A stretch of 64,000 nucleotides of DNA from Thermodesulfobacteriota bacterium. GTDB taxonomy: Bacteria; Desulfobacterota; WTBG01; CAIYCZ01; CAIRTM01. Under the pieces are notes generated by a model. That model saw only the letters and a list, made by a program, of their open reading frames with translations. It was not told the origin of the DNA and did no database searches. Position 1 is the stretch's first letter, and each line of letters begins with the position of its first letter. Location of the stretch: NCBI GenBank assembly GCA_028278025.1, contig JANQFE010000016.1, forward strand, positions 1 to 64,000, in the 5' to 3' direction. A program made the position numbers and the translations under genes. Positions 37,501 to 54,453 of the stretch are shown here, piece after piece.

Positions 37501-39153
37501 TTATACTGCCAGTTTCTTTTCCTTGAGTTGAGGATCAGAATAATCCGGCAGCAGTATCGGGGAAATACGATCGGTTGTTATACCGCAGTCTTGCAGTTCC
37601 CGGTCATAGGCATTTACATGCTCCAGTGATAGTTTGCCGTCACGGGCCTTTTCTCGGGCATAGACTGCGGCATTCTTGCCGGCAATCCTGCCGAAAACCA
37701 GAATATCAAGCAGCGAATTACCCATAAGCCGGTTTTCTCCATGCGCACCTCCGCCGACTTCACCGGCCATATACAGTCCGGGTATGCTGGTCTCACAGGT
37801 ATTTTTGTATTCGATCCCGCCGTTTTGATAATGCAGTGTGGGATACACCAGTAGCGGCTCTTTTGAAATATCAATGCCGTGGCGACCGAACTGCTTGGCC
37901 TTGCCCGGGAACTGTGCCTTAACAAAACCTTCGCCATGAACCAGGTCAAGCATCGGTGAGTCAATCCAGACACCGAACTTTCCGGTAGTGGTAGGTACCC
38001 CTTTGCCCCGCTCGGAACATTCCCGGATGAAAGCAGCCGACTCTACATCCCGGGGTTCGCGCTCATAGACAAACTGCTGTCCTTCCACATTGAGCACATT
38101 AGCCCCGGAGGCCCTGAATTTTTCGGTAATGAGCAATCCTTCGAGTTGCTCGGGGAAAATACAGCCGGTTGGGTGGAACTGCACCGTGTGCAAAAAGGCA
38201 AGTTTCACGCCGGCCCGATAAGCCATAACAACACCGTCTGCAGTAGCTCCGTAATGATTAGTGGTTACAAACCCCTGGATATGCAGCCGGCCGGCCCCGC
38301 CGGTTGCCATAATGACGGCCTTTGCTTTTACCACTGCATAGGTTTCTGTTTCCATGTTATAGAGAACCGCTCCGGCACACTGGCCCTGATCATTGAGAAT
38401 GAGCTCGACCGCCGGTGCAAATTCCAGAACGGTGATATCTTCTTTCCTGTTGCGAACCTCATCACGGATAGTGCGCATAATCTCTGCTCCGGTAATATCA
38501 CCGGCAAAATGAAGCCTGCTGCGGCTGAATCCGGCAGCCGGTAGGGTCTGCATAGTGCCGTCGGGATGCTTCCAGAACATGGTCCCCAGATTTTCCAGCC
38601 AGTTGATAACATCCGGGGCATCATTGCAGAGCGTGTAGACAAGCTCGGGCACACAGGTAAAATGTCCGCCGCCCATAGTATCTATATAGTGATATACCGG
38701 CGAGTCCTTTTCAAGTTTATCAGCAGCCTGTATGCCGCCTTCCGCCATCATGGTATTGGCGTCACCATGGCGGAGCTTTGTGGCCAGCATGACTTTGGCA
38801 CCCTGTTCCTGGGCCAGCAGGGCCGCCGAGGTACCCGCACCCCCGCCCCCGAGCACCAGCACATCCGTTTCATAGTCAACCTGTGAAAGATCAATGCGGT
38901 CGGGGTTTATTCTGCTGTTAGCCTCAAGGATATCGGCAAATTCATGTGCCACAGCATACCCCTTACTGGGGCCGATTTTAAGCTCCCGGCGCGTACCCGG
39001 TATGTAATCGGGGTGAAATTTTTCAAGAATCGCCGCCCGCTCATCAAGCGTCATGGCAGGCACTTCCTTACCAGCCTTCTTGCGCTCAACTCGTTCAGGT
39101 CTGGTTTGCTCCACTACTTTGATAAGCTCTTTGAGTTTTTCTGGGTATGACAT
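37501..39153 (-). CDS. Fumarate reductase/thiol:fumarate reductase-like flavoprotein subunit
   Basis: 550 aa. Reduces fumarate or oxidises succinate at an FAD site. After an ~90-residue extension: FAD fold (VLVLGGGGAGTSAA, ~99-110), MAEGGIQAA, substrate-site motifs TVQFHPTG and ITEKFRASGA (catalytic Arg), and GENRLMGNSLLDILVFGR near the C-terminus. In the segment that carries the FAD-linking His of SdhA/FrdA (HTVAAEGG) this protein has NTMMAEGG, so FAD should be noncovalent, as in TfrA of methanogens. AAGGAG before the ATG. Last gene of the Nuo-Hdr operon, with no membrane anchor gene nearby. Confidence 0.9.
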   Translation of the reverse strand: MSYPEKLKELIKVVEQTRPERVERKKAGKEVPAMTLDERAAILEKFHPDYIPGTRRELKIGPSKGYAVAHEFADILEANSRINPDRIDLSQVDYETDVLVLGGGGAGTSAALLAQEQGAKVMLATKLRHGDANTMMAEGGIQAADKLEKDSPVYHYIDTMGGGHFTCVPELVYTLCNDAPDVINWLENLGTMFWKHPDGTMQTLPAAGFSRSRLHFAGDITGAEIMRTIRDEVRNRKEDITVLEFAPAVELILNDQGQCAGAVLYNMETETYAVVKAKAVIMATGGAGRLHIQGFVTTNHYGATADGVVMAYRAGVKLAFLHTVQFHPTGCIFPEQLEGLLITEKFRASGANVLNVEGQQFVYEREPRDVESAAFIRECSERGKGVPTTTGKFGVWIDSPMLDLVHGEGFVKAQFPGKAKQFGRHGIDISKEPLLVYPTLHYQNGGIEYKNTCETSIPGLYMAGEVGGGAHGENRLMGNSLLDILVFGRIAGKNAAVYAREKARDGKLSLEHVNAYDRELQDCGITTDRISPILLPDYSDPQLKEKKLAV

Positions 39154-39237
39154 GGTGTCTCCTTGTAAACGCGGCTCCCGGCTGCCGTTACACAGCTGTC
39201 AGCCATTTAGTATGTATATAAAGTTTTCTTCCTTTTT

Positions 39238-39999
39238 TTAAAGTAAAAACCGTACATCCTCAGGACGCCAATCTTCACCGGCAGTCTCCGGTTCTATTTC
39301 CCGCTCGGTATACGCTTTTTTAAGTTCATCAGTGTTCATCTTCATTACTTCCTGCATTTTGGCTTCAAACTTGCCGTCTGCTATGGTCTTTACGGCTGCG
39401 GCATTATGCTTTGCTTTAGGAGCAATCCTGCCGCCGTATATTCTGCGGGCAAGCTGCAGGATATGATACTGGGGCATTTCTGCAAAGCAGCGGCTGGTGC
39501 ACAGGCCGCACTGGATACACTCAAAAGAGGTATGCGCGGCTTTTTCAATATTGCCCTGCTTTACATATGATATTGCGTCCATGACCTCAACGTCCATAGG
39601 GCATATCTTAGTGCAGGCGTTGCAGGCTACACAGCGGAACAGTTCAGGATAGCGCTTATGAATCTCCTCGGGGGCCTCGGTCGTCTCCTGATAATTGCCC
39701 GAAACATGGTGAGCAGGATAAAACGGGATCTGCGTCAGGTACATGTTCGCCTCTACAGCAGTCTGACAGGCCAGCGCAGTATATATCTTGTAATCACCAG
39801 GTTTACGGTACACGGTTCCGCAGGCACCGCAGATACCGCCGCGGCAGCCGCATCCCCGAATAAATTGATAACCGGCATACTCCATCGCTTTCATGATGGT
39901 AAGTCCCTCGGGAACATCATAGCGTTTACCCATAATATAGATAGGGATCATGTTTGTCGCATGCGTAGCATTTTGAGTTTTGCCTTTTTCATTACTCAT
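39238..39999 (-). CDS. Fumarate reductase-like iron-sulfur subunit ([2Fe-2S] + two [4Fe-4S])
   Basis: 253 aa. N-terminal ferredoxin-like domain with CGCRGGICGAC and a later Cys (LACQT) for a [2Fe-2S] cluster, then CVACNACTKICP and CIQCGLCTSRC for two cubanes. It resembles the first two thirds of thiol:fumarate reductase TfrB, whose third part, a CCG domain, here is the separate gene 63 bp upstream. It should pass electrons between the HdrB-like protein and the flavoprotein encoded downstream. Confidence 0.88.
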   Translation of the reverse strand: MSNEKGKTQNATHATNMIPIYIMGKRYDVPEGLTIMKAMEYAGYQFIRGCGCRGGICGACGTVYRKPGDYKIYTALACQTAVEANMYLTQIPFYPAHHVSGNYQETTEAPEEIHKRYPELFRCVACNACTKICPMDVEVMDAISYVKQGNIEKAAHTSFECIQCGLCTSRCFAEMPQYHILQLARRIYGGRIAPKAKHNAAAVKTIADGKFEAKMQEVMKMNTDELKKAYTEREIEPETAGEDWRPEDVRFLL

Positions 40000-40062
40000 G
40001 CTCGTACTCCTCTATGAAAATTAAGCTTGCAGGCTTACAAGTATGCCAGCTTGCAAGTTGTT

Positions 40063-40911
40063 TTATATCAGTCCATGTTTTCTCAACAACGGTATCGCGT
40101 CAACCATATGCTTCTTAAACCAGGTAGATGATTCCTCAATGTCCAGGGCCAGACCGATCAGTTCCGTAAAATACAGAATCGGCAACCGGTTCTTTCCGCT
40201 CTGGCGCATGTCAAGATTAGCGTGACACATGGGGCAGGCCACCACAATCGCCTCGGCATCTACCTCGCGGGCATCTTCGATCACCTCCCCCAGCAGTTTC
40301 ATGGCAATTTCTTCCTTGCTGAGAATCAGGCTTCCGCCGCAGCAGTCTACCTTGCCGGCCCAGTCAAGCGCTTCTGCACCCAGCGCCGTAAGCAGCCTGT
40401 CCATACTGAGGGGATTTTCCGGATCATCAAACCCAACAATTTCGGGCGGCCTCACAAGATAACATCCATAATACGGGGCCAGTCTGAGCCCCGTGAGAGG
40501 TTTAACGATTTTTTTTGTTACTTCTTCAATGCCCAGGTCGTTTACAATAATATCCAGCAGATGCCGTACAGTGCGGGTTGCCTCATAGGGCATGCCGATC
40601 ACCTCGGCCATCTTCTTTTTAAAATCAGCAGACTCACGGGCCTTGATCTGCGTGCAGCGCAGCCGCAGGTAGCAGGCCGCGCAGACGATCGCCGTATCAA
40701 GGCCCTGCCCCTCGGCTAGTGCCAGGTTGCGCGCTGTCAGTGCGTGGGCCAGGTCATCATCGAGAAAATGGCCCGATGATGCCCCGCAGCAATTCCAGTC
40801 CGGGATCTCCTCAAGCTCTATACCAAGCCTCCGGCAAACCTCTTCGCTGGAGCGGCCGAACTCTATGGCGGTTGATTCCTGGGTGCATCCGGGATAAAAG
40901 GCGTACTTCAT
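40063..40911 (-). CDS. hdrB: HdrB-like CCG-domain protein (operon copy 2)
   Basis: 282 aa. Two CCG domains with WNCCGASS (~40-47) and VDCCGGSL (~188-195) and additional Cys (YPGCT, CAACYLRL, ACPMCHAN), the pattern that binds the noncubane [4Fe-4S] clusters of heterodisulfide reductase HdrB. Equivalent to the C-terminal third of TfrB. ATG overlaps the upstream hdrC stop by 4 bp. In this operon it may feed the fumarate reductase or reduce a disulfide; no coenzyme M/B biosynthesis is in view. Confidence 0.9.
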   Translation of the reverse strand: MKYAFYPGCTQESTAIEFGRSSEEVCRRLGIELEEIPDWNCCGASSGHFLDDDLAHALTARNLALAEGQGLDTAIVCAACYLRLRCTQIKARESADFKKKMAEVIGMPYEATRTVRHLLDIIVNDLGIEEVTKKIVKPLTGLRLAPYYGCYLVRPPEIVGFDDPENPLSMDRLLTALGAEALDWAGKVDCCGGSLILSKEEIAMKLLGEVIEDAREVDAEAIVVACPMCHANLDMRQSGKNRLPILYFTELIGLALDIEESSTWFKKHMVDAIPLLRKHGLI

Positions 40912-41492: not shown

Positions 41493-41495
41493 TGA

Positions 41496-42620: not shown

Positions 42621-42629
42621 AGCACCTCC

Positions 42630-43064
42630 CTATACTGACCAATTCTTTCTAAACGGGCTGGGGCCCAGTTCTTTTATCTTTTCAGTAAAATCCCGCATGG
42701 TAACTGCAAATTTCTGCCCCTCGGCCGCGCTGATCCATTTGAGCCACACCCGGTCATTCTCCAGCCCCAGCGTATCTAAAATAGTCTTAAGCCCGGCTAT
42801 CCGTCTGCGGGCCTTGTAGTTGCCGGAAACATAATGACAATCGCCCGGGTTGCAGCCCCCGATAATAATTCCGTCCGCCCCTGAAAGCAGTGCCCTGAGT
42901 ATATAAATAGGATCAACTGAACCGCTGCACATGGTGCGAATGGGGCGAATATTGGGCGGATATTGAAGCCTGGTTGTTCCTGCAAGATCGGCAGCCGTAG
43001 AGGTGCACCAGTTGCAGAAAAATCCCACTAAAATAGGTTCAAAATCCTTGTTGTCATCAGCCAT
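42630..43064 (-). CDS. mvhD: MvhD-like [2Fe-2S] adaptor
   Basis: 144 aa. Conserved Cys of MvhD: FFCNWCTST (~15-18), TMCSGSVD, and GGCNPGDCHY. In methanogens MvhD joins the hydrogenase to HdrA; no hydrogenase subunits are encoded here, so it probably links the NuoEF-like module or the FrhB-like protein to an HdrA. GGAGG 9 nt before the ATG. Separated from the double hdrA upstream by a 154-bp spacer made largely of repeat D. Confidence 0.9.
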   Translation of the reverse strand: MADDNKDFEPILVGFFCNWCTSTAADLAGTTRLQYPPNIRPIRTMCSGSVDPIYILRALLSGADGIIIGGCNPGDCHYVSGNYKARRRIAGLKTILDTLGLENDRVWLKWISAAEGQKFAVTMRDFTEKIKELGPSPFRKNWSV

Positions 43065-43079
43065 CGATCATAACCTCCG

Positions 43080-43212
43080 CTTCTGGTTGCTCGTTGCTTG
43101 TTACTGGTTGCTCATTTCTGGTTTTTTTAATTTATTCCGCTTCTCGCCTTACGCTTCACGTTTCTCGTTGCTATTACTTGTTTCTCATCACTCATTACTC
43201 ATTGCTCATCAC
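43080..43212 (-). repeat. Gene-end spacer repeat D (copy b)
   Basis: On the minus strand GTGATGAGCAATGAGTAATG-like units, then GAGAAACGTGAAGCG and GAGCAACCAGTAACAAGC units. It begins 7-8 bp after the stop of the double hdrA and ends at the ribosome site of mvhD. Stop codons occur in all three frames. Confidence 0.7.
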
Positions 43213-43218
43213 TTTTTT

Positions 43219-46215
43219 TCAGAGCGCTTCATCAAGCGCAGCCAAGATTTGCCGGTCGGTAAACTGCCTGAGCTTGGCAGCCTTGTTCGGGCATGCGCTC
43301 ACACAGGCCCCGCAGCCCTGGCAAAGCGCTTCCACTACCAGTGCAACGCCCTTGTCGGCATCTTTAACCCGTGCACCGTACGGGCAGGCTTGCACGCACA
43401 GCTCACAGCCGCTGCACCAGGTTTCATTGACCTCGGAAACCGACTGGCCTGAGACAAGGCTGCCCCGTGATAAAATCAGGCTGGCCCGCTCGGCTGCTGC
43501 CTGGGCCTGCACCAGTGCTTCCTGTATATTCCTGGGTGAATGTGCCAGGCCACAGACAAATATGCCGTCCTTGATGACATCAACAGGACGAAACTTTACC
43601 TCGGCTTCTTTAAAAAATCCATCTTCAGTCACATCAATATCCAGCATTCCGGCCAGCACACTATTATCTGCAGGCACAACCCCGGTGCTCAACACCAGCA
43701 GATCCGGCGAGAGCGAAAAGGCTCCCCCTAAAACAGGATCGTTAACACTCACGGAAAGTTTTTCTTCCGCAGCCTCCACTACAGGCTTTTTGTCAGGTTC
43801 ATAGCGTATAAAAACAATGCCCTGTTCCCGGGCCCTGGTATAGTACTCTTCCATAAAACCATAGCTCATCAGCTCGCGGTACAGGATATATATTTGAATA
43901 TCCGGATTGCGTTCTTTAAGCTGCAGGGCGTTTTTAAGGGCCTGGGCGCAGCACACCCGGCTGCAGTACGGCCGCTCTGCTTCCATTGAGCCCACGCATT
44001 GTATCATAACCAGGGAATTAAGCTGCTGTGGATCCATCTGGCCGGCAGCAAGTCTCTCTTCAAGTTCTGTCTGGGTAATAATGCGTTCATTCTGTCCATA
44101 GAGATATTGCGTTGTCGTACCCTCATCAGCGCCTGTTGCAATAACAACAGCCCCGGCATCCAGCTCATACGGCTCGGAGTCGCTGCCCTGAAGTTTCGCA
44201 TAAAAAGCGCCTGCATGACCGCTGATATGCTCCACCACGGTTTCGGTGTGTACCGTGATAAGCGGATTTTCCGAGACACGCTTAAGCAGATCATCAAGCA
44301 GTGCCCGGCTGTCTTCCCCTTCAAGGGTGCTGTGAATGCTGCGCAGTTTGCCGCCGACTTCACCAGAGCGTTCTACCAGTTCAACCTGATGTCCATGCTC
44401 GGCGATCCTCAGGGCTGCGCTCAATCCGCTTGCACCGCCGCCGATCACAAGCCCTTTCGCGCTGACAATGCTTGACTGGACAGTGCGGGACGGCCGGGCA
44501 TAACGCAGCCTGGCAAGGGCCATGGAGATAAGTTTCCTGGCTTTACGGGTAGCGGCACTCCTGTTGTCCTGATGAACCCAGGCCAGTCCTTCGCGTATGT
44601 TCACTATTTCCAGTGGCAGATTACCAAACAGCTTTTGCCCTGTAAGGGCCGAACACCCGGCAGCAATTACATGGGTCGCGCCCATGTCCCTGATTTTGGT
44701 TTGAACCTGTGCGAGTGTTTCCGGCAAACACAGATGGGAGACCTCCCCGGCATGAATGACACCTGCAAGCTGCCCACTAAAGCTCACCAGTTCTTTAGTA
44801 TCCAGGGCCCTGGTGATTTCCTCACCGCAGGTACAGATAAAAACAGCTGCTTTCATGTCTTCAGCCTGTTCCCCGGACTGCTGGTCATCGCCCTGCATAT
44901 CACCGGGGGCTGCCAGCAGCAGGGATGCGTTTCCTGCCGCCGCACTCGCTTCGGTAAGGGTATCCGCAATATCCTTGGGGGCCGCTGCCGAGCCGCAAAC
45001 GAAAATTCCATCCCGTAAAGACTCGACCGATGAAAACGCTCTGGTTCGGCAGAATTCCCAGCGGTTGCGCTGCAGGCCCAGCATTTCACTGACCTGTACG
45101 AACTGAGCTGACGGAGTCTGTCCCACCGAGAGCACTATAAGGTCACACTGCTGCTGGATGGGCTGGCCGTCCTCGCCTAGAGCACTAAAAATGACATCAT
45201 GTGTCTTGAAATTCTGCATAACCCGCGGCACACGGCATCTGACAAACCGGATGCCCAGCTCATCGCGGGCCTTTTCAAAATAGCGGTAGTAGCCTTTCCC
45301 GGCGGTACGCAGGTCCATAAAATAGATACATACATCCGTACCCGGATATTTTTCCTTAATCATTATGGCCTCTTTGAGCGCATACATGCAGCAGGCCGAT
45401 GAACAGTAGTTGCGCTCCAGCGAGCGTGAACCGACACATTGCAGAAAGGCAACAGACTGGGGCTCTTTGTCGTCCGAGGGGCGCAGCAGGCTGCCCCGGG
45501 TAGGTCCGCTGCCGCTCAGCAGCCGCTCAAGCTCCAGGCTTGTAATAACATTGGGAAAGCGCTTGTATCCATACTGGGAAGCGGCCTGGGCATCAAACTC
45601 GTCAAAACCGGTAGAAAGAATGATGGCACCGACGCTCAGGGTGTTTTCGCTGGTCTGCATATCAAGGTTTATGGCTTTTGTCGGACATACCTCTTCACAT
45701 GCCCTGCAGCGGGTGCAGTGCTGTGCATCAATCGTATAGGTTTTGGCAAGGGCCGTCGGGTTGGCCAGGTAAGCGGCTTTGCGCTTTCCGAGCCCCTGGT
45801 TAAACTCTTCATCCACCTCGACCGGACACACCTCACTACATTTGCCGCATCCTATACACAGGTCAGGATGAATCCCGCTTGAGCGGGTTGCAGTGCTGAC
45901 CGCAAAATTACCGGCTTCACCCTCAACCCCTGTGATTTCGGTTGCGGAAAGTATCTCGATATTGTGATGGACCAGCCCGCGCCTGAGACAGTACTGTGAG
46001 GACCTGTCCCTGGAGAAAATCGGCAGCACCTTGCACATGCCGCAATGGTCATCCGGGAACCACCGGTCAAGCTGCAGCAGCGTGCCGCCGATATGCGTCT
46101 TGCGGTCACACAGGTATACCCTGTGGCCCAGCTCGGCCAGCTCCAGGGCTGCCTTGATACCGGCAATGCCGGCCCCGATCACTAATGCGCTATCTGGTTT
46201 GTCTTTACTGTTCAA
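43219..46215 (-). CDS. hdrA: Double HdrA-like flavoprotein (two fused FAD modules)
   Basis: 998 aa. First half: FAD fold at the very start (ALVIGAGIAGIKAAL), lacking the usual N-terminal CxCG domain, then CIGCGKCSEVCPVEV and CTRCRACEEVCPTKA. Second half (~from residue 465): VFICTCGEEITR N-terminal domain, FAD fold GLVIGGGASGLSAALR, and C-terminal CSGCELCVQACPYGA and CQGCGACVSACPNKA. Two HdrA units in tandem on one chain, each with a YCS-type CC segment (NYCSSACC, PYCSRVCC). Likely site of flavin-based electron branching. TTG start without a strong ribosome site, preceded by a repeat D spacer. Confidence 0.87.
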   Translation of the reverse strand: MNSKDKPDSALVIGAGIAGIKAALELAELGHRVYLCDRKTHIGGTLLQLDRWFPDDHCGMCKVLPIFSRDRSSQYCLRRGLVHHNIEILSATEITGVEGEAGNFAVSTATRSSGIHPDLCIGCGKCSEVCPVEVDEEFNQGLGKRKAAYLANPTALAKTYTIDAQHCTRCRACEEVCPTKAINLDMQTSENTLSVGAIILSTGFDEFDAQAASQYGYKRFPNVITSLELERLLSGSGPTRGSLLRPSDDKEPQSVAFLQCVGSRSLERNYCSSACCMYALKEAIMIKEKYPGTDVCIYFMDLRTAGKGYYRYFEKARDELGIRFVRCRVPRVMQNFKTHDVIFSALGEDGQPIQQQCDLIVLSVGQTPSAQFVQVSEMLGLQRNRWEFCRTRAFSSVESLRDGIFVCGSAAAPKDIADTLTEASAAAGNASLLLAAPGDMQGDDQQSGEQAEDMKAAVFICTCGEEITRALDTKELVSFSGQLAGVIHAGEVSHLCLPETLAQVQTKIRDMGATHVIAAGCSALTGQKLFGNLPLEIVNIREGLAWVHQDNRSAATRKARKLISMALARLRYARPSRTVQSSIVSAKGLVIGGGASGLSAALRIAEHGHQVELVERSGEVGGKLRSIHSTLEGEDSRALLDDLLKRVSENPLITVHTETVVEHISGHAGAFYAKLQGSDSEPYELDAGAVVIATGADEGTTTQYLYGQNERIITQTELEERLAAGQMDPQQLNSLVMIQCVGSMEAERPYCSRVCCAQALKNALQLKERNPDIQIYILYRELMSYGFMEEYYTRAREQGIVFIRYEPDKKPVVEAAEEKLSVSVNDPVLGGAFSLSPDLLVLSTGVVPADNSVLAGMLDIDVTEDGFFKEAEVKFRPVDVIKDGIFVCGLAHSPRNIQEALVQAQAAAERASLILSRGSLVSGQSVSEVNETWCSGCELCVQACPYGARVKDADKGVALVVEALCQGCGACVSACPNKAAKLRQFTDRQILAALDEAL

Positions 46216-46230
46216 ATTACAAGCCTTAAT

Positions 46231-46309
46231 AATTATCTGTTGTTAATTGTCCGTTGTCTGTTGCTTTTTCTATTCACGAATTACCAATCACCAATTACGA
46301 TTCAACCTT
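46231..46309 (-). repeat. Gene-end spacer repeat D (copy c)
   Basis: Minus strand: AATCGTAATTGGTGATTGG, AATTCGTGAATAGAAAAAGC and AACAGACAACGGACAATT units, starting directly after the stop of hdrA. Closely matches copy e at 56861-56922. Confidence 0.7.
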
Positions 46310-48283
46310 TCATTCATACTCTTTCGTAAATACATCCACGATATTGAAAAACTGTTTGGGCGTCCAGTTTTTATGCTTCATAGCTTTTGAAGGACAGGTA
46401 GCCGCGCAGGCACCGCAGCCCTCACATATGGCCTCGTTAACACTGGCCAGCTTCTGTTTCTCATCCAAAGTAATGGCCTTATAGGCACAGATTGACACGC
46501 ACTGACCGCAACCCACACAAAGCTCTTCATCCACATAAGCTATAGCGGGATCATGCAGCAGCTCCTCCCGGGAGAACAGGGACAGTATCCGGCTTGCAGC
46601 ACCGCTGGCCGAGGCAATCGTGTCCGGGATGTCCTTGGGCCACTGGGCAGTACCGGCAAGGTAGATGCCTGACGTGAGGGTATCTACCGGCCGCAGCTTT
46701 AAATGGGCCTCGGTGAAAAAACCGTTCTGATCGGCAATGATGTTCAGCACCCGGGCAAGGTCTTTGGCATCGGTACGCGGCACCATGGCGGTTGCCAGCA
46801 CCACCATATCCGCGGCAATCTCAATGCTCTTGCCGGTCAGAGTATCAACTCCCCAGACCTTGAGCTTATCACCATCGCGAAACACCTTTGACACCCGGCC
46901 GCGCAGATACATTGTGCGGCCCTTTTCAACCACATTCTGCACAAACTCCTCGGTGCCTTTTACATCAGAGCGAATATCCATATAGAAGACATAGGCCTGT
47001 CCCTCGGGTATGCTGCGTTTATACAGCAGCGATTGCTTGGCCACATACAGGCAGCAGACCCGCGAGCAGTAGGATTTGCCGTGCTCCTGATCACGCGAAC
47101 CGACACACTGGATAAACACCACTTCTTTGGGCACCTTGCCGTCTGAGGGGCGTTTGACAACTCCGCCGGTTGGCCCTGTAGGCGAGAGCAGCCGTTCAAG
47201 CTGCATTCCGTCGATAATATCAGGATCATCACTGTACTCGGGGGCAATGCCCCTGGTAATCAGATCATACCCGGTTGCAACCACGATAGCACCCAGTTCT
47301 TCCTCGATAACCGTGTCTTTCTGATCATAGGAAATAGCATTCTCGCTGCAGACCTGCTCACAGGCGCTGCACCCGTCATCACTAAAATGAGCACACGACA
47401 GCACATCTATTACCGGCCTGAAGGGTACTGCCTGGGCAAAGGGCCGGTAAATTGCCTTTCGGTCAGACAGTCCGCGGTCAAATTCAGACGGAACAGCAAC
47501 CGGGCATACCTCAAAACAGCGTCCGCAATTGGTACACTTCGTCTCATCGACACAGGTGGCTTTTGCGCGGATTTTCACTGCGAAATTACCCACATACCCC
47601 GAGACTTCCTCAATATCGGCATAGGCATACAGCCTGATCCGGGGATGGGCGGCAACCTCCGCCATCATAGGGGCTACCAGGCATGCCGGGCGATCAAGCG
47701 TTGGAAACGTACCGGACAACTGGGCCGCATGCCCGCCGATGCTGGGAGAGCTTTCCACCAGCACCACCTCATACCCTCCATTGGCAATACGCAACGCAGC
47801 CTGCATGCCGGCCACACCTCCGCCGATCACCAGGACCTTTTTATTAAGATTAATGACCGCCGGGGTCAGGGCCATGTTGAGCTTGAGCCGGTCGATGGTA
47901 GCCTTGATGATCGCGATGGCTTTCCTGGTTGCGGTCTGGCGGTCATTGGCGTGCGGCCAGCTGCAGTGTTCCCTGATGTTGGCAACTTCCTGATGGTAGG
48001 GGTTAAGGCCCTCTGCCTGTACCAGACCCCGAAATGTTTTTTCATGCAGCGAGGGCGAGCAATTGGCGTTTATAACGGCATTAAGATTGTGATCCTTGAT
48101 GGCCTTGCGTATCAGTTCCTGACCCGGCTCGGAGCACATGTACTGATAATGCTCAGCGTGCACCACGCCCGGGTAGCTGCTTATCTCCTGCACTACCTTC
48201 TCAACATCTACTGACTGGGCAACATTAAGCCCGCAGTGGCAGACAAAAACGCCGATTCTTTTATCTTTCCCGCTCTGTTCCAT
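46310..48283 (-). CDS. hdrA: HdrA-like flavoprotein (first of the 650-aa pair in coordinate order)
   Basis: 657 aa, canonical HdrA build: N-terminal domain with FVCHCGLN (Cys15/Cys17), FAD fold VLVIGGGVAGMQAALR (~150), CTNCGRCFEVCPVAV (~250) and CSACEQVCSENAI, SYCSRVCC, and two C-terminal [4Fe-4S] motifs CVGCGQCVSICAYKAI and CEGCGACAATCPSKAM for ferredoxin exchange. Flavin-based electron bifurcation is the role of HdrA in methanogens; here assumed. The ATG has no ribosome site and directly follows a repeat D spacer. Confidence 0.92.
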   Translation of the reverse strand: MEQSGKDKRIGVFVCHCGLNVAQSVDVEKVVQEISSYPGVVHAEHYQYMCSEPGQELIRKAIKDHNLNAVINANCSPSLHEKTFRGLVQAEGLNPYHQEVANIREHCSWPHANDRQTATRKAIAIIKATIDRLKLNMALTPAVINLNKKVLVIGGGVAGMQAALRIANGGYEVVLVESSPSIGGHAAQLSGTFPTLDRPACLVAPMMAEVAAHPRIRLYAYADIEEVSGYVGNFAVKIRAKATCVDETKCTNCGRCFEVCPVAVPSEFDRGLSDRKAIYRPFAQAVPFRPVIDVLSCAHFSDDGCSACEQVCSENAISYDQKDTVIEEELGAIVVATGYDLITRGIAPEYSDDPDIIDGMQLERLLSPTGPTGGVVKRPSDGKVPKEVVFIQCVGSRDQEHGKSYCSRVCCLYVAKQSLLYKRSIPEGQAYVFYMDIRSDVKGTEEFVQNVVEKGRTMYLRGRVSKVFRDGDKLKVWGVDTLTGKSIEIAADMVVLATAMVPRTDAKDLARVLNIIADQNGFFTEAHLKLRPVDTLTSGIYLAGTAQWPKDIPDTIASASGAASRILSLFSREELLHDPAIAYVDEELCVGCGQCVSICAYKAITLDEKQKLASVNEAICEGCGACAATCPSKAMKHKNWTPKQFFNIVDVFTKEYE

Positions 48284-48284
48284 G

Positions 48285-48412
48285 TTTGTTTCTTGTTGCT
48301 CGTTACTCGTTGCTAGTTATCAATTACGAATTACCAATTATGAATTACGAACCGGTTGTTTCTCAGCACTCAGAACTCATTGCTCATCACTCATTACTCA
48401 TCCCTCATTTCC
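48285..48412 (-). repeat. Gene-end spacer repeat D (copy d)
   Basis: Minus strand: GAGGGATGAGTAATGAGTGA, GAGTTCTGAGTGCTGAG, AATTCATAATTGGTAATTCG and GAGTAACGAGCAACAAG units. The repeat supplies the last three codons (Asn-Glu-Gly) and TGA of the upstream hdrA gene and runs up to the ATG of the next hdrA. Confidence 0.75.
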
Positions 48413-50149
48413 CGCTGCCGCCAGTGTATCTGTGACTACCTCATCCTGCGAAAACAACTCCAGCACACTGCTGGCGGCTCCGCTGCCCATGGCAACGGAA
48501 TCCGGAATATCCCGGGGCCCCTGGGCCGTACCGGCAACATAAATGCCGGCGACCGACGTTTCCAGCGGCCGCAGCTTCGGGTGGGCCTCGGCAATAAATC
48601 CATATTCATTGGTAGCTATACCAAGCTTGCGGGCCAGGTCTTTAGCGCCTTCGGAAGGCATCATGGCCATACCCAGCACCACCATATCACAGGCAATATC
48701 AACTTTTTGACCGGTAAGCGTATCCGCGCCCTGAACCCTGAGTGTATCGCCGTCACGGAAAATCTTGGAAACCCGTCCCCGCAGGTACATAACACCGTAT
48801 TCCTCCACAGCCCGCTGCACAAACTCTTCATAGCCTTTTCCGGTGGTGCGCTGGTCCATATAAAAAACATAGGCCTGCCCGTCATGCACCACATGCCGAT
48901 AGAGCAGGGCCTGCTTGGCCAGGTACATGCAGCACACCCGTGAACAATAAGATACACCATGCTCCGGATCACGCGAGCCTATACAGGACACAAACACAAC
49001 CTCCTTGGGCTCCTTGCCGTCGGAAGGCCTGCGCACCACTCCCGCGGTCGGGCCGGAAGGACACAGGACGCGCTCAAATTCAAGGCCGTGAACAATATCG
49101 GGATCATCATAGAATTCGCTGATCTCCTTCTTGGGCATCAGGTCAAAGCCGGCAGTCACCACAATCGCCCCGACTTTTTCCTCCAGGATGGTATCCTGCT
49201 GATCATAGTCAATGGCCTGCAGGGGGCAAATCTGGGAGCACACCTGACACAGACCGGTAGTAAAATGTCCGCATACCTCCCGGTTGATAACCGGTTTGTT
49301 GGGTACGGCCTGGGCAAACGGTATCGAAATCGCCTTAGCCTGGTTAAAGGGTAGCTGCTGGTTGTATTCCGAAGCAACCGGTGTGAGGCACTTTTGCTGA
49401 CAAATTCCGCACCCGTTACACTTATCCCAGTCAACATAGGTAGCTTTCTTTCTGATCTTCACCGTAAAATCACCGACCGAGCCGCTGACCGATTCTATCT
49501 CGCTGTAGGCCATTATGGTAATGTTGGGATGCTGCCCGACCTCAACCATCTTGGGGGTTCCGATACACTGGGGACAGTCCAGCGTGGGAAACACCTCCGC
49601 GTATTGCAGCATGTGACCTCCGATACTGGAGGTCTTTTCTACCAGCAGCACTTCATAACCGGCATCTGCTATATCAAGAGAGGTCTGGATGCCGGCTATA
49701 CCGCCGCCGATTACCAAGGCCCGCTTGGTGATGCGTGTTGTCACCCCGGGCAGTGCCTGGGCGCCACGGATTTTTGCAACTGCATTATCAAGGGCCTCAA
49801 TGACCCTGGCCGTAGTCTCTTCCGCCGTCTCAAAGCGCGGCCAGGAAAAATAGTCTTCCAGGTCTACGATTTCAACCTGGTGGGACTGCAAACCCTGTGA
49901 TGCGAGCACCCTGCGCAGGTTTTCCTCGTGGGTTGCCGCAGAGCAGGTGGTTATGACTACTCCGTCCAGATTATCGGCGGTTATCTGCTGCTGCAGGTGT
50001 GCACAGGTGGGATCAAGGCACAGGTCCTCGGCAGCCGAGGCATGCACAACATCGGAAAGACTGCTGACCGCTGCGGTCACGTCATCCTTGTTGAGTGCTC
50101 CGGCAGCCCTCAAATTACAATAGCAGAGAAATACGCCGATTCTAGCCAT
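48398..50149 (-). CDS. hdrA: HdrA-like flavoprotein lacking the C-terminal ferredoxin domain
   Basis: 583 aa. N-terminal VFLCYCNLRAAG (Cys-x-Cys kept), FAD fold ALVIGGGIAGIQTSLD, CNGCGICQQKCLTPV, CQVCSQICPLQAI, and SYCSRVCCMYLAKQA. It ends after the SGAASSVLELFSQDE segment, without the two C-terminal [4Fe-4S] motifs present in its neighbour, so it probably cannot pass electrons to ferredoxin itself. Overlaps the NuoG-like gene by 8 bp, which suggests that it takes electrons from the NuoEF-G module. Confidence 0.9.
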   Translation of the reverse strand: MARIGVFLCYCNLRAAGALNKDDVTAAVSSLSDVVHASAAEDLCLDPTCAHLQQQITADNLDGVVITTCSAATHEENLRRVLASQGLQSHQVEIVDLEDYFSWPRFETAEETTARVIEALDNAVAKIRGAQALPGVTTRITKRALVIGGGIAGIQTSLDIADAGYEVLLVEKTSSIGGHMLQYAEVFPTLDCPQCIGTPKMVEVGQHPNITIMAYSEIESVSGSVGDFTVKIRKKATYVDWDKCNGCGICQQKCLTPVASEYNQQLPFNQAKAISIPFAQAVPNKPVINREVCGHFTTGLCQVCSQICPLQAIDYDQQDTILEEKVGAIVVTAGFDLMPKKEISEFYDDPDIVHGLEFERVLCPSGPTAGVVRRPSDGKEPKEVVFVSCIGSRDPEHGVSYCSRVCCMYLAKQALLYRHVVHDGQAYVFYMDQRTTGKGYEEFVQRAVEEYGVMYLRGRVSKIFRDGDTLRVQGADTLTGQKVDIACDMVVLGMAMMPSEGAKDLARKLGIATNEYGFIAEAHPKLRPLETSVAGIYVAGTAQGPRDIPDSVAMGSGAASSVLELFSQDEVVTDTLAAAGNEG

Positions 50150-50750
50150 CCTTTTCTCCAGAGCGCTGTTTATTTCGTTGCCAGAGAAACTCCGGCTTGC
50201 CGTCTACAATTCTGATTGCCCCGGTCGGGCAGACATAAGCACATCCCCCGCAGGCAATACACTCTTCGGGAGGCTCATAAAACGGGGCAGCCACTTCCTT
50301 TTCAAATCCGCGGTCAACAAAATTGAGCAGATGTTTTTCAGAAACCTCATGACAGACCCGCACGCACAAACCGCACAGAATACATTCATGTTCGTCTCTT
50401 TCAAAACGCGGTTTGTCAACACCCAGCTGCTGTGCCAGGGCCTGAATCCTTTCCGAGTCCGGACACCTGGTCAGCAATAGCTCTATAATACCGCGCCGCA
50501 GGCGCAGAACCCTTTCAGAGTTTGTTTTCACTTCAAGTCCCTGGGCAACGGGGTACAGGCAGGACACAACCACGCGGGACCACCCGCGCTGTACGACCTC
50601 CACGCTGCACAGGCGGCAGGACCCGTGGGCACTCAGAACCGGATGGTAGCAGAGCGTAGGAATTTCTATGCCGAACATCCTGGCAGCTTCCAGAATGGTC
50701 GTGCCTTCCGTGACTCCTATCTCTTTGCCGTCTATGGTCAGCGTGATCAT
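50142..50750 (-). CDS. NuoG N-terminal/HoxU-like iron-sulfur subunit
   Basis: 202 aa. [2Fe-2S] ferredoxin domain with LCYHPVLSAHGSCRLCSVEV-type spacing and a fourth Cys (VVSCLYP), the His/Cys G region, then CILCGLCVRVCHE (~122-134) and CIACGGCAYVCPTGAI (~163-178). Equivalent to the electron-transfer part of NuoG, HoxU or the gamma subunit of bifurcating hydrogenases, without a molybdopterin or H-cluster domain. Overlaps nuoF by 4 bp. Confidence 0.9.
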   Translation of the reverse strand: MITLTIDGKEIGVTEGTTILEAARMFGIEIPTLCYHPVLSAHGSCRLCSVEVVQRGWSRVVVSCLYPVAQGLEVKTNSERVLRLRRGIIELLLTRCPDSERIQALAQQLGVDKPRFERDEHECILCGLCVRVCHEVSEKHLLNFVDRGFEKEVAAPFYEPPEECIACGGCAYVCPTGAIRIVDGKPEFLWQRNKQRSGEKDG

Positions 50751-52672
50751 TTCCTACCCTCGGATCTCTTTCGTGCTGCTCCAAACTTGCAGACTTCAAT
50801 GCAGGCACCGCATTTAATACACTTTTCAGTATCAATACGGTGCGGTTGTTTCTTTTCGCCGAAGATTGCCTCGTTGGGACACTTCCTGGCACACAGCGTA
50901 CACCCGGTGCAGGCTTCCGGGTCGATATAATACTCGATCAAATCAGGACACACCCCGGCAGGGCAGCGTTTGTCCCTTATGTGAGCTTCATACTCATCCC
51001 TGAAGTAACTGAGGGTACTGATAACCGGGTTGGCAGCACTTGAACCCAGAGCGCACAGCGCTCCGTCCTGCAGTGTCAGAGCCAGGTCTTCAAGCAGCTC
51101 AATGTCGCCCTGGTTACCCTCCCCTGCGGTTATTCTACTCAGCACCTGGCGGGCCCGCCGGACACCCTCACGGCAGGGTACACACTTGCCGCAGGATTCA
51201 CCTTCAAGGAACTCCAGAAAATATTTGGCCACGTCCACCATACAGGTGTCCTCATCCATGACAATCATGCCGCCCGAGCCCATCATGGAGCCTGCTTCTG
51301 TGAGGGCCTCATAGTCAACCGGCAGATCAAGCAGTCGCTCGGGGATACACCCGCCCGATGGTCCTCCTGTCTGGACCGCCTTGAACTTCTTGCCCTGCGG
51401 AACTCCTCCGCCGATAGTATCGATGATCTCACGCAGGCTCACACCCATGGGAACTTCAACCAGCCCGGTATTGTTTATCTTTCCGACTAGGGAAAATATT
51501 TTTGTTCCTTTGCTGCGGTCCGTGCCGATAGAGGCATACCAGTCAGCCCCCCTGTTTATGATAAGCGGCACATTGGCCCATGTTTCAACATTATTGAGAT
51601 TGCTGGGTTTGTCCCAGAGCCCCCGTGCTACAGAACGGATATATTTTGCCCGGGGCTCTCCAATTTTTCCTTCCAGTGAGGCCATTAGTGACGTGGACTC
51701 ACCGCAGACAAAAGCGCCGCCGCCGCGGTTGATTTTAATTGAAAAGTTAAAATCAGTACCAAAAATATTCTCCCCCAGGATTCCGTATTCCCGGGCCTGT
51801 TCAATCGCCCGCCTGATTCGCTTGATTGCCAGGGGGTATTCATTGCGCACATATATATAGCCCTGGTGAGACCCTATGGCATAGGCACCAATAACCATCC
51901 CCTCCAGCACGCTGTGCGGATCACCTTCCAGAACACTTCTGTCCATATAAGCGCCGGGGTCACCCTCATCGGCATTACATATAACGTACCGGGGCGTTCC
52001 GGGGGCCTTACGACAGGACTCCCATTTAACCCCGGTAGGAAATCCGGCCCCGCCCCTTCCCCGCAGACCGGAACGCTTTACTTCACTGATAACCTGCTCG
52101 GACGTCATCTCGTGCAGGACTTTAAACAGGGCTGTATAGCCGCCCTTGGCAATATATTCACAAATGTTGCCCGGATCGATATAGCCGCAATTATGCAGCG
52201 CTATTTTGAGCTGTTTGTTATAGAAATCGATATCAGTGCATAGAGGAATATCCGCAAATACTGCAGGGGCTTCACTGATATCATAGGGAACGGTTTTGTC
52301 TTCAATTAAAAACCGTTCTGATTCGTCTTTTGCCAGAATCCACTCTGTATTGACTGCATTGTTTTGTAAGCTTGAAACCAACTCCAGGGCCTTATCAGGC
52401 GTCATTTTTTTTAAAAAAATGCGGGGCTTTTTGGGCTGCTGCACGCTGACAATGGGCTCCTGCTGGCAAAAACCCATGCAGCCGGTCTGTTCGAGCGCAA
52501 TATCCAGACCCGCTTTTTCTATCTCCCCTGCAAGCGCGTCCCAGACTTTTCCCGCACCTGTGGCCAGACCGCAGGTAGCCATCCCCACGCTGATTTTAAT
52601 CTTCTGCGGATGCAGCAGGGCCAGTCCTTGTTCACGAACTTCCTGTAAATCATTAAGTGATGTTATCTTCAT
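50747..52672 (-). CDS. nuoF: NuoF-like NADH-binding flavoprotein
   Basis: 641 aa. N-terminal thioredoxin-like [2Fe-2S] domain (Cys34; TGCMGFC), then the NuoF core with FMN/NADH motifs (GLRGRGGAGFPTGVKW; CNADEGDPGAYMDRS), the N3 cluster motif ESCGKCVPCREG and a C-terminal two-cubane ferredoxin domain (CTGCTLCARKCP, CIKCGACIEVCK). This long form is the type found in bifurcating hydrogenases (HydB) and other soluble NADH modules rather than in complex I. Overlaps nuoE by 4 bp. Entry or exit point of NAD(H) for the Hdr complex. Confidence 0.95.
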   Translation of the reverse strand: MKITSLNDLQEVREQGLALLHPQKIKISVGMATCGLATGAGKVWDALAGEIEKAGLDIALEQTGCMGFCQQEPIVSVQQPKKPRIFLKKMTPDKALELVSSLQNNAVNTEWILAKDESERFLIEDKTVPYDISEAPAVFADIPLCTDIDFYNKQLKIALHNCGYIDPGNICEYIAKGGYTALFKVLHEMTSEQVISEVKRSGLRGRGGAGFPTGVKWESCRKAPGTPRYVICNADEGDPGAYMDRSVLEGDPHSVLEGMVIGAYAIGSHQGYIYVRNEYPLAIKRIRRAIEQAREYGILGENIFGTDFNFSIKINRGGGAFVCGESTSLMASLEGKIGEPRAKYIRSVARGLWDKPSNLNNVETWANVPLIINRGADWYASIGTDRSKGTKIFSLVGKINNTGLVEVPMGVSLREIIDTIGGGVPQGKKFKAVQTGGPSGGCIPERLLDLPVDYEALTEAGSMMGSGGMIVMDEDTCMVDVAKYFLEFLEGESCGKCVPCREGVRRARQVLSRITAGEGNQGDIELLEDLALTLQDGALCALGSSAANPVISTLSYFRDEYEAHIRDKRCPAGVCPDLIEYYIDPEACTGCTLCARKCPNEAIFGEKKQPHRIDTEKCIKCGACIEVCKFGAARKRSEGRK

Positions 52673-53139
52673 TGCGATTCTGTGCGATACTGTTCCAGCA
52701 GCTTGGCCAGTTCATCCTGGGTCACGTTGCCGTAGGTTTCCTCGCCTACCACGACCACAGGGGCCAGGCTGCAGCAGCCTACACACCGGACGGTTTCCAG
52801 TGTAAACTGTTTATCTTTGGTTGTTTCTCCCGGTGTAATACCTAAATCTCTGTTTATCTTGTGCTCTATACCGGCCGCGCCCCTAACATGACAGGCGGTT
52901 CCGGTACACACACTGATAATATGTTTGCCGCGCGGTTTCAGGCTGAAAGCTTTAAAAAAGGTAGCAACGCCAAACACCTGACCTACCGGAATGTCAAGCT
53001 CGGCACTGACGGTTTCAAGGGCTTCACGGGGCAGATAATTAAATTCAGCCTGCACATCCTGTAAAATAGAGATGAGCATCTCTTTTTCGCCGTTGTACCC
53101 GGCAATTATTTCTTCTACTTTGGCAGCATCATATTCCAT
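52669..53139 (-). CDS. nuoE: NuoE-like [2Fe-2S] subunit
   Basis: 156 aa, thioredoxin-like fold. Four cluster Cys in CTGTACHVRGA (~79-84) and RCVGCCSLAPV (~120-124). Works with the NuoF-like flavoprotein in NADH oxidation or NAD+ reduction. Ten bp after hdrB and overlapping nuoF. Confidence 0.95.
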   Translation of the reverse strand: MEYDAAKVEEIIAGYNGEKEMLISILQDVQAEFNYLPREALETVSAELDIPVGQVFGVATFFKAFSLKPRGKHIISVCTGTACHVRGAAGIEHKINRDLGITPGETTKDKQFTLETVRCVGCCSLAPVVVVGEETYGNVTQDELAKLLEQYRTESQ

Positions 53140-53149
53140 TGCAGTATCC

Positions 53150-54028
53150 TTACGCGATTAAGCCTTTGCTCTCCAAAAACGCCTGGTTGTTCATATATCC
53201 CAGGTCAAATCGGCAGCCCTCTGTATCAACCCCCAGGGCCAGCGCCAGAAGCTGGGTAAAATAGATAACAGGCAGCTGCTTAAAACCGGTGTACTGCACT
53301 GTCAGCTCCTTTTGTTTGACTGCCAGGTTATATTCACACAGCGGACAGCTGACTGCCAGGACCTCAGCCCCCCGGCCTGCAGCCGAGCTCAGGATATTCC
53401 AGGCGCACTCATTCACAAACTCAGGAGTGCTCACGGTCTGAAATGATCCGCAGCATTCGGTTTCAAAAGGAAAACCGACGGCGGTTGCTCCCAGTGCTTC
53501 AATCAGCTTGTGCAGCACGCTGGGCTGCTCCACATCATCAAGGGCTATATCACTGGGACGCACCAGGGTGCAGCCGTAATAAGGCGCTACTTTCAGGCCG
53601 CTCAGCGGTTTGGACACTTTCTCCGCCAGGGTTTCCCAGCCCACATCATCTCTCAGCACCTCCAGCAGGTGAACCGGCTCAACTCCGCCGCTGTAATCCG
53701 GCTCCTCGTCCATAAACCTGTTCAGCGTATCCTTTTTGTCCGCGTCATGTGTAATAATCATGTTGGCCCGCTTGAGGGTGTTGTAGCAAAAAGCACACAG
53801 TGTGAGCAGTTTCGCGGCACCCTGCTCCTGGGCCCTGATTAAAGTGCGTACCGGGGCTACCTGGTGAATCAGGTCATCGTCCGAAAGACTAAAGGCCGCG
53901 CCGCAGCAGTTCCAGCGCGGTAGTTCAATGAGATTTACCCCCAGGGCCGCCAGAGCAGCTATAGCGGAATCCTCAAAGTTTTTGGATTTTGTTTTGAGCG
54001 TACAACCGGGATAGTAATACAAATCCAT
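53150..54028 (-). CDS. hdrB: HdrB-like CCG-domain protein (operon copy 1)
   Basis: 292 aa. YYYPGCTL, WNCCGAAF (~40-47), CAFCYNTL, TECCGSFQ (~190-197) and SCPLCEYN give the two CCG cluster sites. Diverged from the copy at 40063-40911, so the two are distinct subunits and not a recent duplication. Seventeen bp after hdrC copy 1. Confidence 0.9.
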   Translation of the reverse strand: MDLYYYPGCTLKTKSKNFEDSAIAALAALGVNLIELPRWNCCGAAFSLSDDDLIHQVAPVRTLIRAQEQGAAKLLTLCAFCYNTLKRANMIITHDADKKDTLNRFMDEEPDYSGGVEPVHLLEVLRDDVGWETLAEKVSKPLSGLKVAPYYGCTLVRPSDIALDDVEQPSVLHKLIEALGATAVGFPFETECCGSFQTVSTPEFVNECAWNILSSAAGRGAEVLAVSCPLCEYNLAVKQKELTVQYTGFKQLPVIYFTQLLALALGVDTEGCRFDLGYMNNQAFLESKGLIA

Positions 54029-54045
54029 AACACACCTATTAAAAG

Positions 54046-54453
54046 TTAGCCGGTAAATTTCCTGAACCCGCTTACCAATGCTATTTGCGGGAGTTCCTTG
54101 ATTGTTTCCTGGGCCATCTTGGACAGTTCAACCGTGTCCTCGTTCTTGCGCAGTGTCAGCTGGCGCAGCGCCTCCATTACCTTGGAAAGATCAACGCCCC
54201 GCGGGCAGCGGGCGCCGCAGGTGATACAGGACGCACAAAGCCAGATTGTTTTCGACTTGCCGATTTCTTCATCCAAGCCCAGCTGTACCAGCCGGATAAT
54301 CTGGTTGGGCAGAATGTCCATGGCAAACACCATCGGACAGCCCGCAGAGCACTTGCCGCACTGGTAGCAGGACATCAGGTCCTGCCCGCTGATTTCCTCG
54401 ATCTTTTTAACAAATTCGCTGCACAGTTTTTTAGAATCCAGTTTGACTCTCAT
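54046..54453 (-). CDS. hdrC: HdrC-like iron-sulfur protein (operon copy 1)
   Basis: 135 aa. CYQCGKCSAGCP (~29-40) and CASCITCGARCP (~72-83) with NQIIRLVQLGL between, the compact HdrC form. GGGAGG ribosome site. First gene of the 17-kb operon; preceded by a hairpin (54511-54529) in its leader. Confidence 0.9.
   Translation of the reverse strand: MRVKLDSKKLCSEFVKKIEEISGQDLMSCYQCGKCSAGCPMVFAMDILPNQIIRLVQLGLDEEIGKSKTIWLCASCITCGARCPRGVDLSKVMEALRQLTLRKNEDTVELSKMAQETIKELPQIALVSGFRKFTG

Follow-up and report, generated by a model that had tools for sequence, protein, structure and literature searches.

A 14-gene Nuo-Hdr-FrdAB operon that may encode a soluble succinate:fumarate oxidoreductase linked to NAD(H) and ferredoxin

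We analyzed 14 genes that lie together at positions 37501-54453, on the minus strand, of a 64,000-nucleotide stretch of DNA from a Thermodesulfobacteriota bacterium (contig JANQFE010000016.1 of assembly GCA_028278025.1; this whole stretch is called the window below). The operon brings together an NADH module of the NuoEFG type, four HdrA flavin modules, two HdrBC pairs and a pair resembling the catalytic subunits of fumarate reductase, and it probably codes for one soluble, multi-subunit succinate:fumarate oxidoreductase linked to both NAD(H) and ferredoxin. That the products form a single complex, and with it the wiring, bifurcation and stoichiometry proposed here, we infer from the genes; the two directions, succinate oxidation and fumarate reduction, appear roughly evenly probable.

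The open reading frame (ORF) list bears out an earlier sequence-only reading of this DNA, which had placed 14 minus-strand ORFs in this span, and scans with Pfam and NCBIfam confirm in outline the families that it had named, including the four HdrA modules and the two HdrBC pairs. In the order of transcription the genes are as follows (aa, amino acids; FAD and FMN, flavin adenine dinucleotide and flavin mononucleotide):

54046..54453, minus strand: hdrC1, 135 aa, 4Fe-4S dicluster protein
53150..54028, minus strand: hdrB1, 292 aa, two CCG noncubane-cluster motif sets, both intact
52669..53139, minus strand: nuoE / BfuC-like, 156 aa, thioredoxin-like 2Fe-2S protein
50747..52672, minus strand: nuoF / BfuB-like, 641 aa, module for NADH and FMN with a C-terminal 4Fe-4S pair and the B2-cluster signature
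50142..50750, minus strand: short nuoG / BfuA Type-2-like, 202 aa, 2Fe-2S and two 4Fe-4S
48398..50149, minus strand: hdrA1, 583 aa, one FAD module (K412, E359), without the C-terminal ferredoxin domain
46310..48283, minus strand: hdrA2, 657 aa, full-length HdrA (K416, E363)
43219..46215, minus strand: hdrA3, 998 aa, TTG start, double HdrA (type II), two FAD modules
42630..43064, minus strand: mvhD / FlpD, 144 aa
41496..42620, minus strand: FrhB/FdhB-like subunit, 374 aa
40908..41492, minus strand: hdrC2, 194 aa
40063..40911, minus strand: hdrB2, 282 aa, two CCG sets intact, SdhE-like (177 bits, cut-off 500)
39238..39999, minus strand: frdB-like, 253 aa, 2Fe-2S and two 4Fe-4S ligand sets
37501..39153, minus strand: frdA-like, 550 aa, FAD domain, dicarboxylate catalytic residues

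Genes overlap at 4 of the 13 junctions (nuoE/nuoF by 4 bp, nuoF/nuoG by 4, nuoG/hdrA1 by 8 and hdrC2/hdrB2 by 4) and lie 3-17 bp apart at another 4. The last 5 have gaps of 63-154 bp (hdrA1/hdrA2 114, hdrA2/hdrA3 94, hdrA3/mvhD 154, hdrB2/frdB 63, frdB/frdA 84), so that the description of the run as tightly packed holds for the blocks, though not for all junctions. Scans of the window for tRNAs and, at the gathering score, for Rfam families found none. None of the 14 genes codes for a membrane anchor subunit, as had been read from the sequence, and hydropathy windows of 19 residues gave no clear membrane segment among the 14 proteins.

The dicarboxylate and electron-transfer modules

The best NCBIfam match of FrdA is TfrA (326 bits, cut-off 718), followed by SdhA (275) and NadB (268), also below their cut-offs. 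At H327, E344, R347, R368, H441 and R475 the aligned SdhA and NadB proteins of the same genome have the same amino acids, and we take these residues, like the flavin-link position, to have the roles usually assigned to these sites. N133 occupies the position of the covalent FAD-linking His, which is His43 in the SdhA of this genome; NadB also has Asn there. With Asn for the linking His, the FAD of FrdA is predicted to be bound non-covalently. The N terminus is extended by about 94 aa in all 16 aligned sequences, the one from Cupriavidus showing a gap.

FrdB carries ligands for one 2Fe-2S cluster (C52/C57/C60/C78) and two 4Fe-4S clusters (C123/C126/C129/C133 and C161/C164/C167/C171), all of them invariant in 77/77 aligned sequences (the window's protein and the plus-strand matches longer than 200 aa from the 80 named loci described below). 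The 3Fe-4S pattern of complex II is absent from this alignment, with two CxxCxxCxxxC sets in its place. The label "FrdB-like" given from the sequence stands on a weak match to the dhsB family (36 bits over 37 residues, as compared to 237 bits for the canonical SdhB of the genome). An AlphaFold2 model of FrdB reached a mean predicted local distance difference test (pLDDT) score of 82 and a predicted template modelling score of 0.68.

The pair shares dicarboxylate catalytic residues with classical complex II (succinate:quinone or quinol:fumarate reductase), whereas the covalent-FAD His, the 3Fe-4S cluster and the anchor subunit are all missing from the operon. It recalls systems of the TfrAB and SdhABE type, in which a non-classical FrdA and FrdB go with a CCG (HdrB/SdhE) protein, although the SdhE and TfrA scores of the window's proteins stay below the cut-offs (177 vs 500 and 326 vs 718). 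In addition, the TfrB model fuses FrdB and HdrB parts, whereas the window has separate chains plus HdrA and NADH modules. Since the genome codes for its own NadB over the cut-off, and the neighbors of the operon are genes for C4 acids and CoA, we rated an identity as L-aspartate oxidase low.

NuoF contains the Pfam 51K FMN domain, SLBB (25.6 bits, cut-off 27), the NADH 4Fe-4S domain and an extra C-terminal 4Fe-4S pair. In A. mobile BfuB the B2 cluster is held by C438, C476 or Thr, H525, C531 and C536, Thr being the commoner variant at the C476 position and the His being reported missing from non-bifurcating homologues (PMC9304861). Alignment with BfuB places this signature at C477, T515, H564, C570 and C575 of the window's NuoF, and A241 and M243 match the Bfu-listed A202 and M204. 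Cys sets for one 2Fe-2S and two 4Fe-4S clusters are present in the short NuoG, which, judged by eye, lacks the A3 set. The B2 ligands, the C-terminal 4Fe-4S pair, a BfuC and a short BfuA without A3 all resemble Type 2 of the HydABC-like Bfu family; the proposed difference lies in the third substrate, here fumarate/succinate, and the main text of PMC9304861 contains neither word. In the Protein Data Bank (PDB), NuoF is closest to the NiFe hydrogenase 7t2r (subunit B) and to chains of 9bov, 8oh5, 9n5u, 7q4v and 8a6t; entries titled as electron bifurcating are 7t30, 9bov, 8oh5, 8a6t and 9mqx, several of them among the nearest.

For HdrA, K409 and E356 of the Methanothermococcus protein were proposed as marks that separate bifurcating from non-bifurcating proteins (PMC12054007). 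Their equivalents by alignment are K412/E359 in hdrA1, K416/E363 in hdrA2 and K281/E230 in the N-terminal half of hdrA3, and K761/E720 in the C-terminal half of hdrA3 correspond to them by motif only. hdrA2 has a C-terminal ferredoxin domain with two 4Fe-4S clusters, and hdrA3 likewise ends in one; hdrA1 stops where this domain starts in the alignment with a standard HdrA. HdrB1 and HdrB2 each have two C-CCG-CxxC sets. As far as can be judged from the sequences, NuoF retains most of the published bifurcation marks, and the HdrA modules have theirs, three of them by alignment and the fourth by motif. The model of the FrhB-like subunit (pLDDT 84) matched chain E of both 7bkb and 8rvu with a template modelling (TM) score of 0.74 by query length; 7bkb chain E is presumably FdhB.

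Several known systems share parts of this design. The methanogen Hdr supercomplexes (Fdh-Hdr-Fmd 7bkb, Elp-Hdr 8rvu, Hdr 5odc) have a close HdrA sequence, MvhD, HdrBC and an FdhB/FrhB-like subunit; in contrast, the 14 genes of the window include no hydrogenase or formate dehydrogenase, add further HdrA modules, and have FrdAB instead of, or beside, heterodisulfide chemistry. Class II benzoyl-CoA reductase (BamBCDEFGHI, Bam-Bfu), for which two bifurcation modules in series were proposed (PMC9304861), likewise combines NuoEFG-like BfuABC with an HdrA-type module in one complex, as is predicted for the window; its terminal unit is the tungsten protein BamB, whereas that of the window is FrdAB. 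We ruled out a class II benzoyl-CoA reductase here, as the BamB family is absent from the 14 genes and the scanned neighbors. Among relatives with operons that are Bam-like by gene order, the one first gene scanned matched the aldehyde ferredoxin oxidoreductase model below cut-off (199/868 bits).

In reverse tricarboxylic acid (TCA) clusters of tubeworm symbionts and Thioflavicoccus, flxABCD-hdrABC genes are interspersed with korABCD and tfrAB, and a complex delivering electrons directly to 2-oxoglutarate:ferredoxin oxidoreductase and fumarate reductase was suggested (PMC6315080). Compared by description and not by sequence, that system and the window both join a Tfr/FrdAB-type fumarate reductase to HdrABC and an NADH module. 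They differ in that the window has NuoEFG of the Bfu type in place of FlxABCD, four HdrA modules including a double HdrA, two HdrBC pairs and no kor genes, in a methylmalonyl-CoA and not a reverse TCA setting; no FlxA (FAD/NAD-binding) module was found by Pfam among the 14 genes. A five-subunit soluble NADH-dependent fumarate reductase has reportedly been described for the reductive TCA cycle of Hydrogenobacter thermophilus, and is similar in being soluble and NADH-linked.

Conservation of the gene order in relatives

The sequence-only reading had proposed a search for the same gene order in other genomes, and this search found all 14 genes, in order and with 47-67% identity, across two contig ends of a genome of another family in the same class (G013). 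One contig (C284) runs to its end as fumA-fumB-hdrC1-hdrB1-nuoE-nuoF-nuoG-hdrA1-hdrA2-hdrA3-mvhD-frhB, and another (C266) begins at its end with hdrC2-hdrB2-frdB-frdA-sucC-sucD. The break lies inside frhB and hdrC2, as expected for one operon split by the assembly, although the joint itself is unseen. In a tree of 21 NuoF proteins the window and G013 sequences form a pair with support 100/98; deeper forks are weak, and a separate supported group unites the four NuoF whose operons resemble Bam in gene order. Since the same order recurs in G013, and most of the set without nuoEFG recurs in other families, the 14-gene order is not a product of chance.

FrdA has a patchy distribution. It was detected at E <= 1e-60 in 15 of 58 related genomes, this one included, and at E <= 1e-150 in 78 of 297 genomes of the phylum; 4 of the 17 genomes of the class have it (again including this one), and neither of two genomes of the same order has a match at E <= 1e-60. 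To survey its surroundings we tabulated the best 80 of at least 579 FrdA relatives in named genomes, counting same-strand genes above 60 bits anywhere in each stretch; the fractions describe the nearest relatives only, and many stretches end at contig ends. In this set FrdB occurs at 77 loci, HdrB at 50, HdrA at 36, MvhD at 32, the FrhB-like subunit at 18 and the double HdrA at 14, along with Kor at 12, Flx at 8, fumarase at 15 and Nuo at none. Double HdrA, MvhD, FrhB-like and FrdBA co-occur in several families, and the records of FrdA relatives with nearby Hdr genes are labelled as many phyla. The gene sucC or sucD lies within 4 kb on the same strand at 21 of 97 loci (among these 97 is the locus of the window itself, and one record or more is counted twice, L026 = L048).

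The combination had been called unusual. The association of Hdr genes with a soluble FrdAB proved widespread in the HdrB and HdrA counts above (50/80 and 36/80), and a Flx-Hdr-Tfr-Kor link had already been proposed (PMC6315080); what stands of the claim is the rarity of NuoEFG with four HdrA modules beside FrdAB, an elaboration whose NuoEFG genes lie within the operon in two genomes here, the window's and G013. Among the literature matches listed, from a search reaching few subscription papers, there was no description of NuoEFG with HdrA and FrdAB.

Other architectures appear among the relatives. A GltD-like (NAD(P)H-binding) domain is fused to HdrA in the G042 operon, at the place of hdrA1 (L038:11463-14225), and on a contig of G014 without frdA (L041:6088-8253). 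Flx modules occur in Ilyobacter and in some metagenome-assembled genomes (MAGs). A plasmid search gave two useful relatives. On the Ilyobacter polytropus plasmid pILYOP01 (L043:4831-17482) the row is aspartate ammonia-lyase, HdrB, HdrC, HdrA, MvhD, Flx-like, FrdB, FrdA and aminotransferase. The Cupriavidus metallidurans CH34 megaplasmid (L044:5291-10331) has frdB-frdA-nuoF beside a sodium:dicarboxylate symporter, in a stretch without Hdr, and may encode a simple NADH-linked relative. In four genomes (L128, L132, L133, L143) kor/por-like AB genes are followed directly by nuoEFG, possibly a 2-oxoacid oxidoreductase with an NADH module of the Bfu type.

Proposed mechanism, energetics and alternatives

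In the complex that we propose, FrdA would interconvert succinate and fumarate at its FAD, and FrdB, with its 2Fe-2S and two 4Fe-4S clusters, would connect FrdA to an HdrBC pair, the HdrBC pairs passing electrons on to the HdrA flavins. The entry point of NAD(H) would be the FMN of NuoF, in a Bfu module of Type 2 (NuoEFG) from which electrons would move on to the HdrA modules, and MvhD with the FrhB/FdhB-like subunit would stand at another HdrA entry. In methanogen Fdh-Hdr complexes, MvhD and an FdhB-type subunit are located at the HdrA entry. The HdrA FADs, and possibly the Bfu center too, would then split or join electrons between NAD(H), ferredoxin and fumarate/succinate. Such a complex would serve the methylmalonyl-CoA route of the cell, conserving energy as reduced ferredoxin when acting as a fumarate reductase, or spending reduced ferredoxin to drive succinate electrons onto NAD+ when acting as a succinate dehydrogenase. 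A bolder version, to which we give somewhat less than even probability, has the Bfu FMN and the HdrA FADs bifurcating in series, so that this soluble enzyme would replace membrane complex II and reverse transport through quinone in the methylmalonyl-CoA route, with reduced ferredoxin in place of an ion gradient paying for succinate oxidation onto NAD+, or being earned by fumarate reduction.

We estimated the energetics from potentials of +33 mV for fumarate and physiological values of -280 mV for NAD and -500 mV for ferredoxin (PMC5861303, PMC9304861). At these in-vivo-like potentials, the reaction fumarate + 2 NADH + 2 Fdox -> succinate + 2 NAD+ + 2 Fdred yields about -18 kJ/mol, and its reverse comes near equilibrium at a succinate:fumarate ratio of ~1000; with standard potentials the computed values are -49 kJ/mol forward and +49 kJ/mol in reverse. 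The computed energetics therefore leave both directions possible. The methylmalonyl-CoA pathway itself runs either way, in propionate oxidisers and in propionate producers.

The coupled complex that the sequence-only reading had suggested gains from these results, with an anchorless FrdAB, an NADH module and Hdr flavins in one conserved order and bifurcation residues largely intact. Several observations weigh against it. Five operons read whole (G023, G024, G028, G037 and G042) carry most of the set without nuoEFG, suggesting that NuoEFG is dispensable for the core function; in G028, nuoEFG lies 6.7 kb downstream of frdA, after kor-like genes. No NuoF match lay beside FrdA in another 16 genomes, whose operons are of the double-HdrA or FrhB-like type (some of these operons end at contig ends, where nuoEFG may have been lost): G062 has both on one contig at a distance of ~171 kb, and the remaining genomes have them on different contigs or lack NuoF. 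FrdA (E <= 1e-60) was found in none of the 8 other genomes of the same family, several of them incomplete. Hdr is unseen at 22 of the 80 nearest named loci and HdrB appears without HdrA at another 22, some at contig ends, and FrdAB may have other partners, such as NuoF in Cupriavidus. Within the operon, the 63-154 bp gaps could hold internal promoters. The fold search with the FrdB model returned weak partial matches (best TM 0.29), none of them a complex II subunit, and one 19-residue window of hdrA3 averages 1.74 in hydropathy, the highest of the set, though within a Cys-rich Fe-S stretch. In NuoF, the BfuB residue F182 could not be placed in chain numbering (Phe at chain position 180 corresponds to Ser219), and the first 110 residues have three Cys only (C34, C65, C69) for the N-terminal 2Fe-2S cluster (B5). 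Finally, canonical SdhA and SdhB, both over their cut-offs, are encoded on another contig of the same genome, which rules out FrdAB as its sole succinate/fumarate enzyme; Sdh_cyt has no match in the genome (93.5% complete), and the anchor of this SdhAB may have been lost at a contig end.

The gene run might instead code for two machines, a Nuo-Hdr complex that bifurcates between NADH and ferredoxin (or a thiol-disulfide protein) and a FrdAB that works with another carrier or with one HdrBC, their co-location reflecting co-regulation within the methylmalonyl-CoA route. We regard this as rather unlikely, about a one-in-several chance. It would fit the loci just described where FrdAB goes with HdrB but no HdrA is seen, or with no Hdr at all, as well as the presence of two HdrBC pairs, one beside nuoEFG and the other beside frdB, and the wider gaps between some blocks. 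However, hdrC2 and hdrB2 adjoin frdB, the double HdrA, MvhD, FrhB-like and FrdBA genes stay together in several families, and G013 has all 14 genes in order, across its two contig ends.

Improbable, in our view, is a simple soluble fumarate reductase that depends on NADH and does not bifurcate, in which electrons would run from NADH through NuoF and an Hdr relay to FrdAB with the extra HdrA modules as wires, for disposing of NADH or feeding a reductive branch. The Cupriavidus arrangement, with its symporter and no Hdr seen in the stretch, makes transfer from NADH to FrdAB without HdrA plausible, and some HdrABC complexes outside methanogens are probably non-bifurcating (PMC5861303); against this, the HdrA modules and NuoF retain bifurcation-linked residues including the B2 His, and four HdrA FADs for a transfer that runs ~60 kJ/mol downhill would presumably waste energy. 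More improbable still is that FrdA acts on a substrate other than succinate, such as L-aspartate or another dicarboxylate, in an amino-acid or specialised dicarboxylate oxidoreductase. The similar sub-threshold NadB and SdhA scores, the flavin-link Asn common to FrdA and NadB, and the position of the Ilyobacter cluster between aspartate ammonia-lyase and aminotransferase could be read that way, but TfrA is the best match of FrdA, the genome has a NadB of its own, fumarate is itself the product of aspartate ammonia-lyase, and the operon has fumarase, mdh and methylmalonyl-CoA genes around it in this genome, and fumAB with sucCD in G013. We favor the single NAD(H)- and ferredoxin-linked oxidoreductase as probable.

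Genomic setting and the propionate pathway

The genes around the operon place it in the methylmalonyl-CoA (propionate) route:

54702..55592, minus strand: fumA, fumarase alpha subunit, over the NCBIfam cut-off
55702..56628, minus strand: mdh, malate dehydrogenase, over the NCBIfam cut-off
58319..60025, minus strand: AMP-forming acyl-CoA ligase, context gene
60147..61409, minus strand: class III CoA-transferase, succinyl-CoA-type relatives below cut-off
63722..64000 in the window (whole gene 63722-64708 of contig C9 in G000), minus strand: meaB, over the NCBIfam cut-off
64728-66863, outside the window, minus strand: methylmalonyl-CoA mutase, over the NCBIfam cut-off
67039-67443, outside the window, minus strand: methylmalonyl-CoA epimerase, over the NCBIfam cut-off
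9278..9856, minus strand: fumB, fumarase beta subunit, the genome's only Fumerase_C match

The statement that mdh and fumarase lie just upstream holds for mdh and fumA; fumB is ~45 kb away from fumA, whereas the two are adjacent in several related operons, for example in G013 and G053. Together with fumB and a phosphoenolpyruvate carboxykinase elsewhere in the window, the neighbors cover the steps from methylmalonyl-CoA to succinyl-CoA, succinate, fumarate, malate and oxaloacetate. Mutase or epimerase genes were found near frdA at 4 of 99 other loci (L093, L097, L099 and L100), suggesting that this linkage is local to few lineages. The best RnfC of the genome scores 236.8 bits (cut-off 245.95), and Rnf is probably present. 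No dsrA over the cut-off was found in the genome, and we set sulfate reduction aside as the setting.

Two genes, at 56910-57704 and 61883-63037, interrupt the methylmalonyl-CoA gene row. The latter, between meaB and the CoA-transferase, codes for a protein of 384 aa with no Pfam or NCBIfam match and an RRSFLK-like start, by eye a possible export signal. A gene at 32813-35731 codes for 972 aa, with a C-terminal half of the glutamate-dehydrogenase type; ahead of it is a long N-terminal region in which Pfam gave no match at E <= 0.001.

Two Cloacimonadota MAGs have FrdB-FrdA of this family (L082 and L117), with HdrB also in L117. Succinate dehydrogenase was described as missing from the propionate pathway in two representative Cloacimonadota genomes (PMC13082233). 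These FrdB-FrdA proteins could be candidates for the missing step, though the MAGs may differ from the digester lineages studied.

Of the steps in the methylmalonyl-CoA pathway, succinate oxidation (~+30 mV) has been described as the one most dependent on energy, and it has been explained by a membrane-bound enzyme with menaquinone (PMC8691401). The operon bears on how this step is paid for, and makes the idea of a soluble enzyme testable in a single gene run. If our reading is true, fumarate/succinate would join the third substrates proposed for Bfu enzymes, and a soluble enzyme that ties the succinate step to ferredoxin and NAD(H) would be a different answer to its energy cost.

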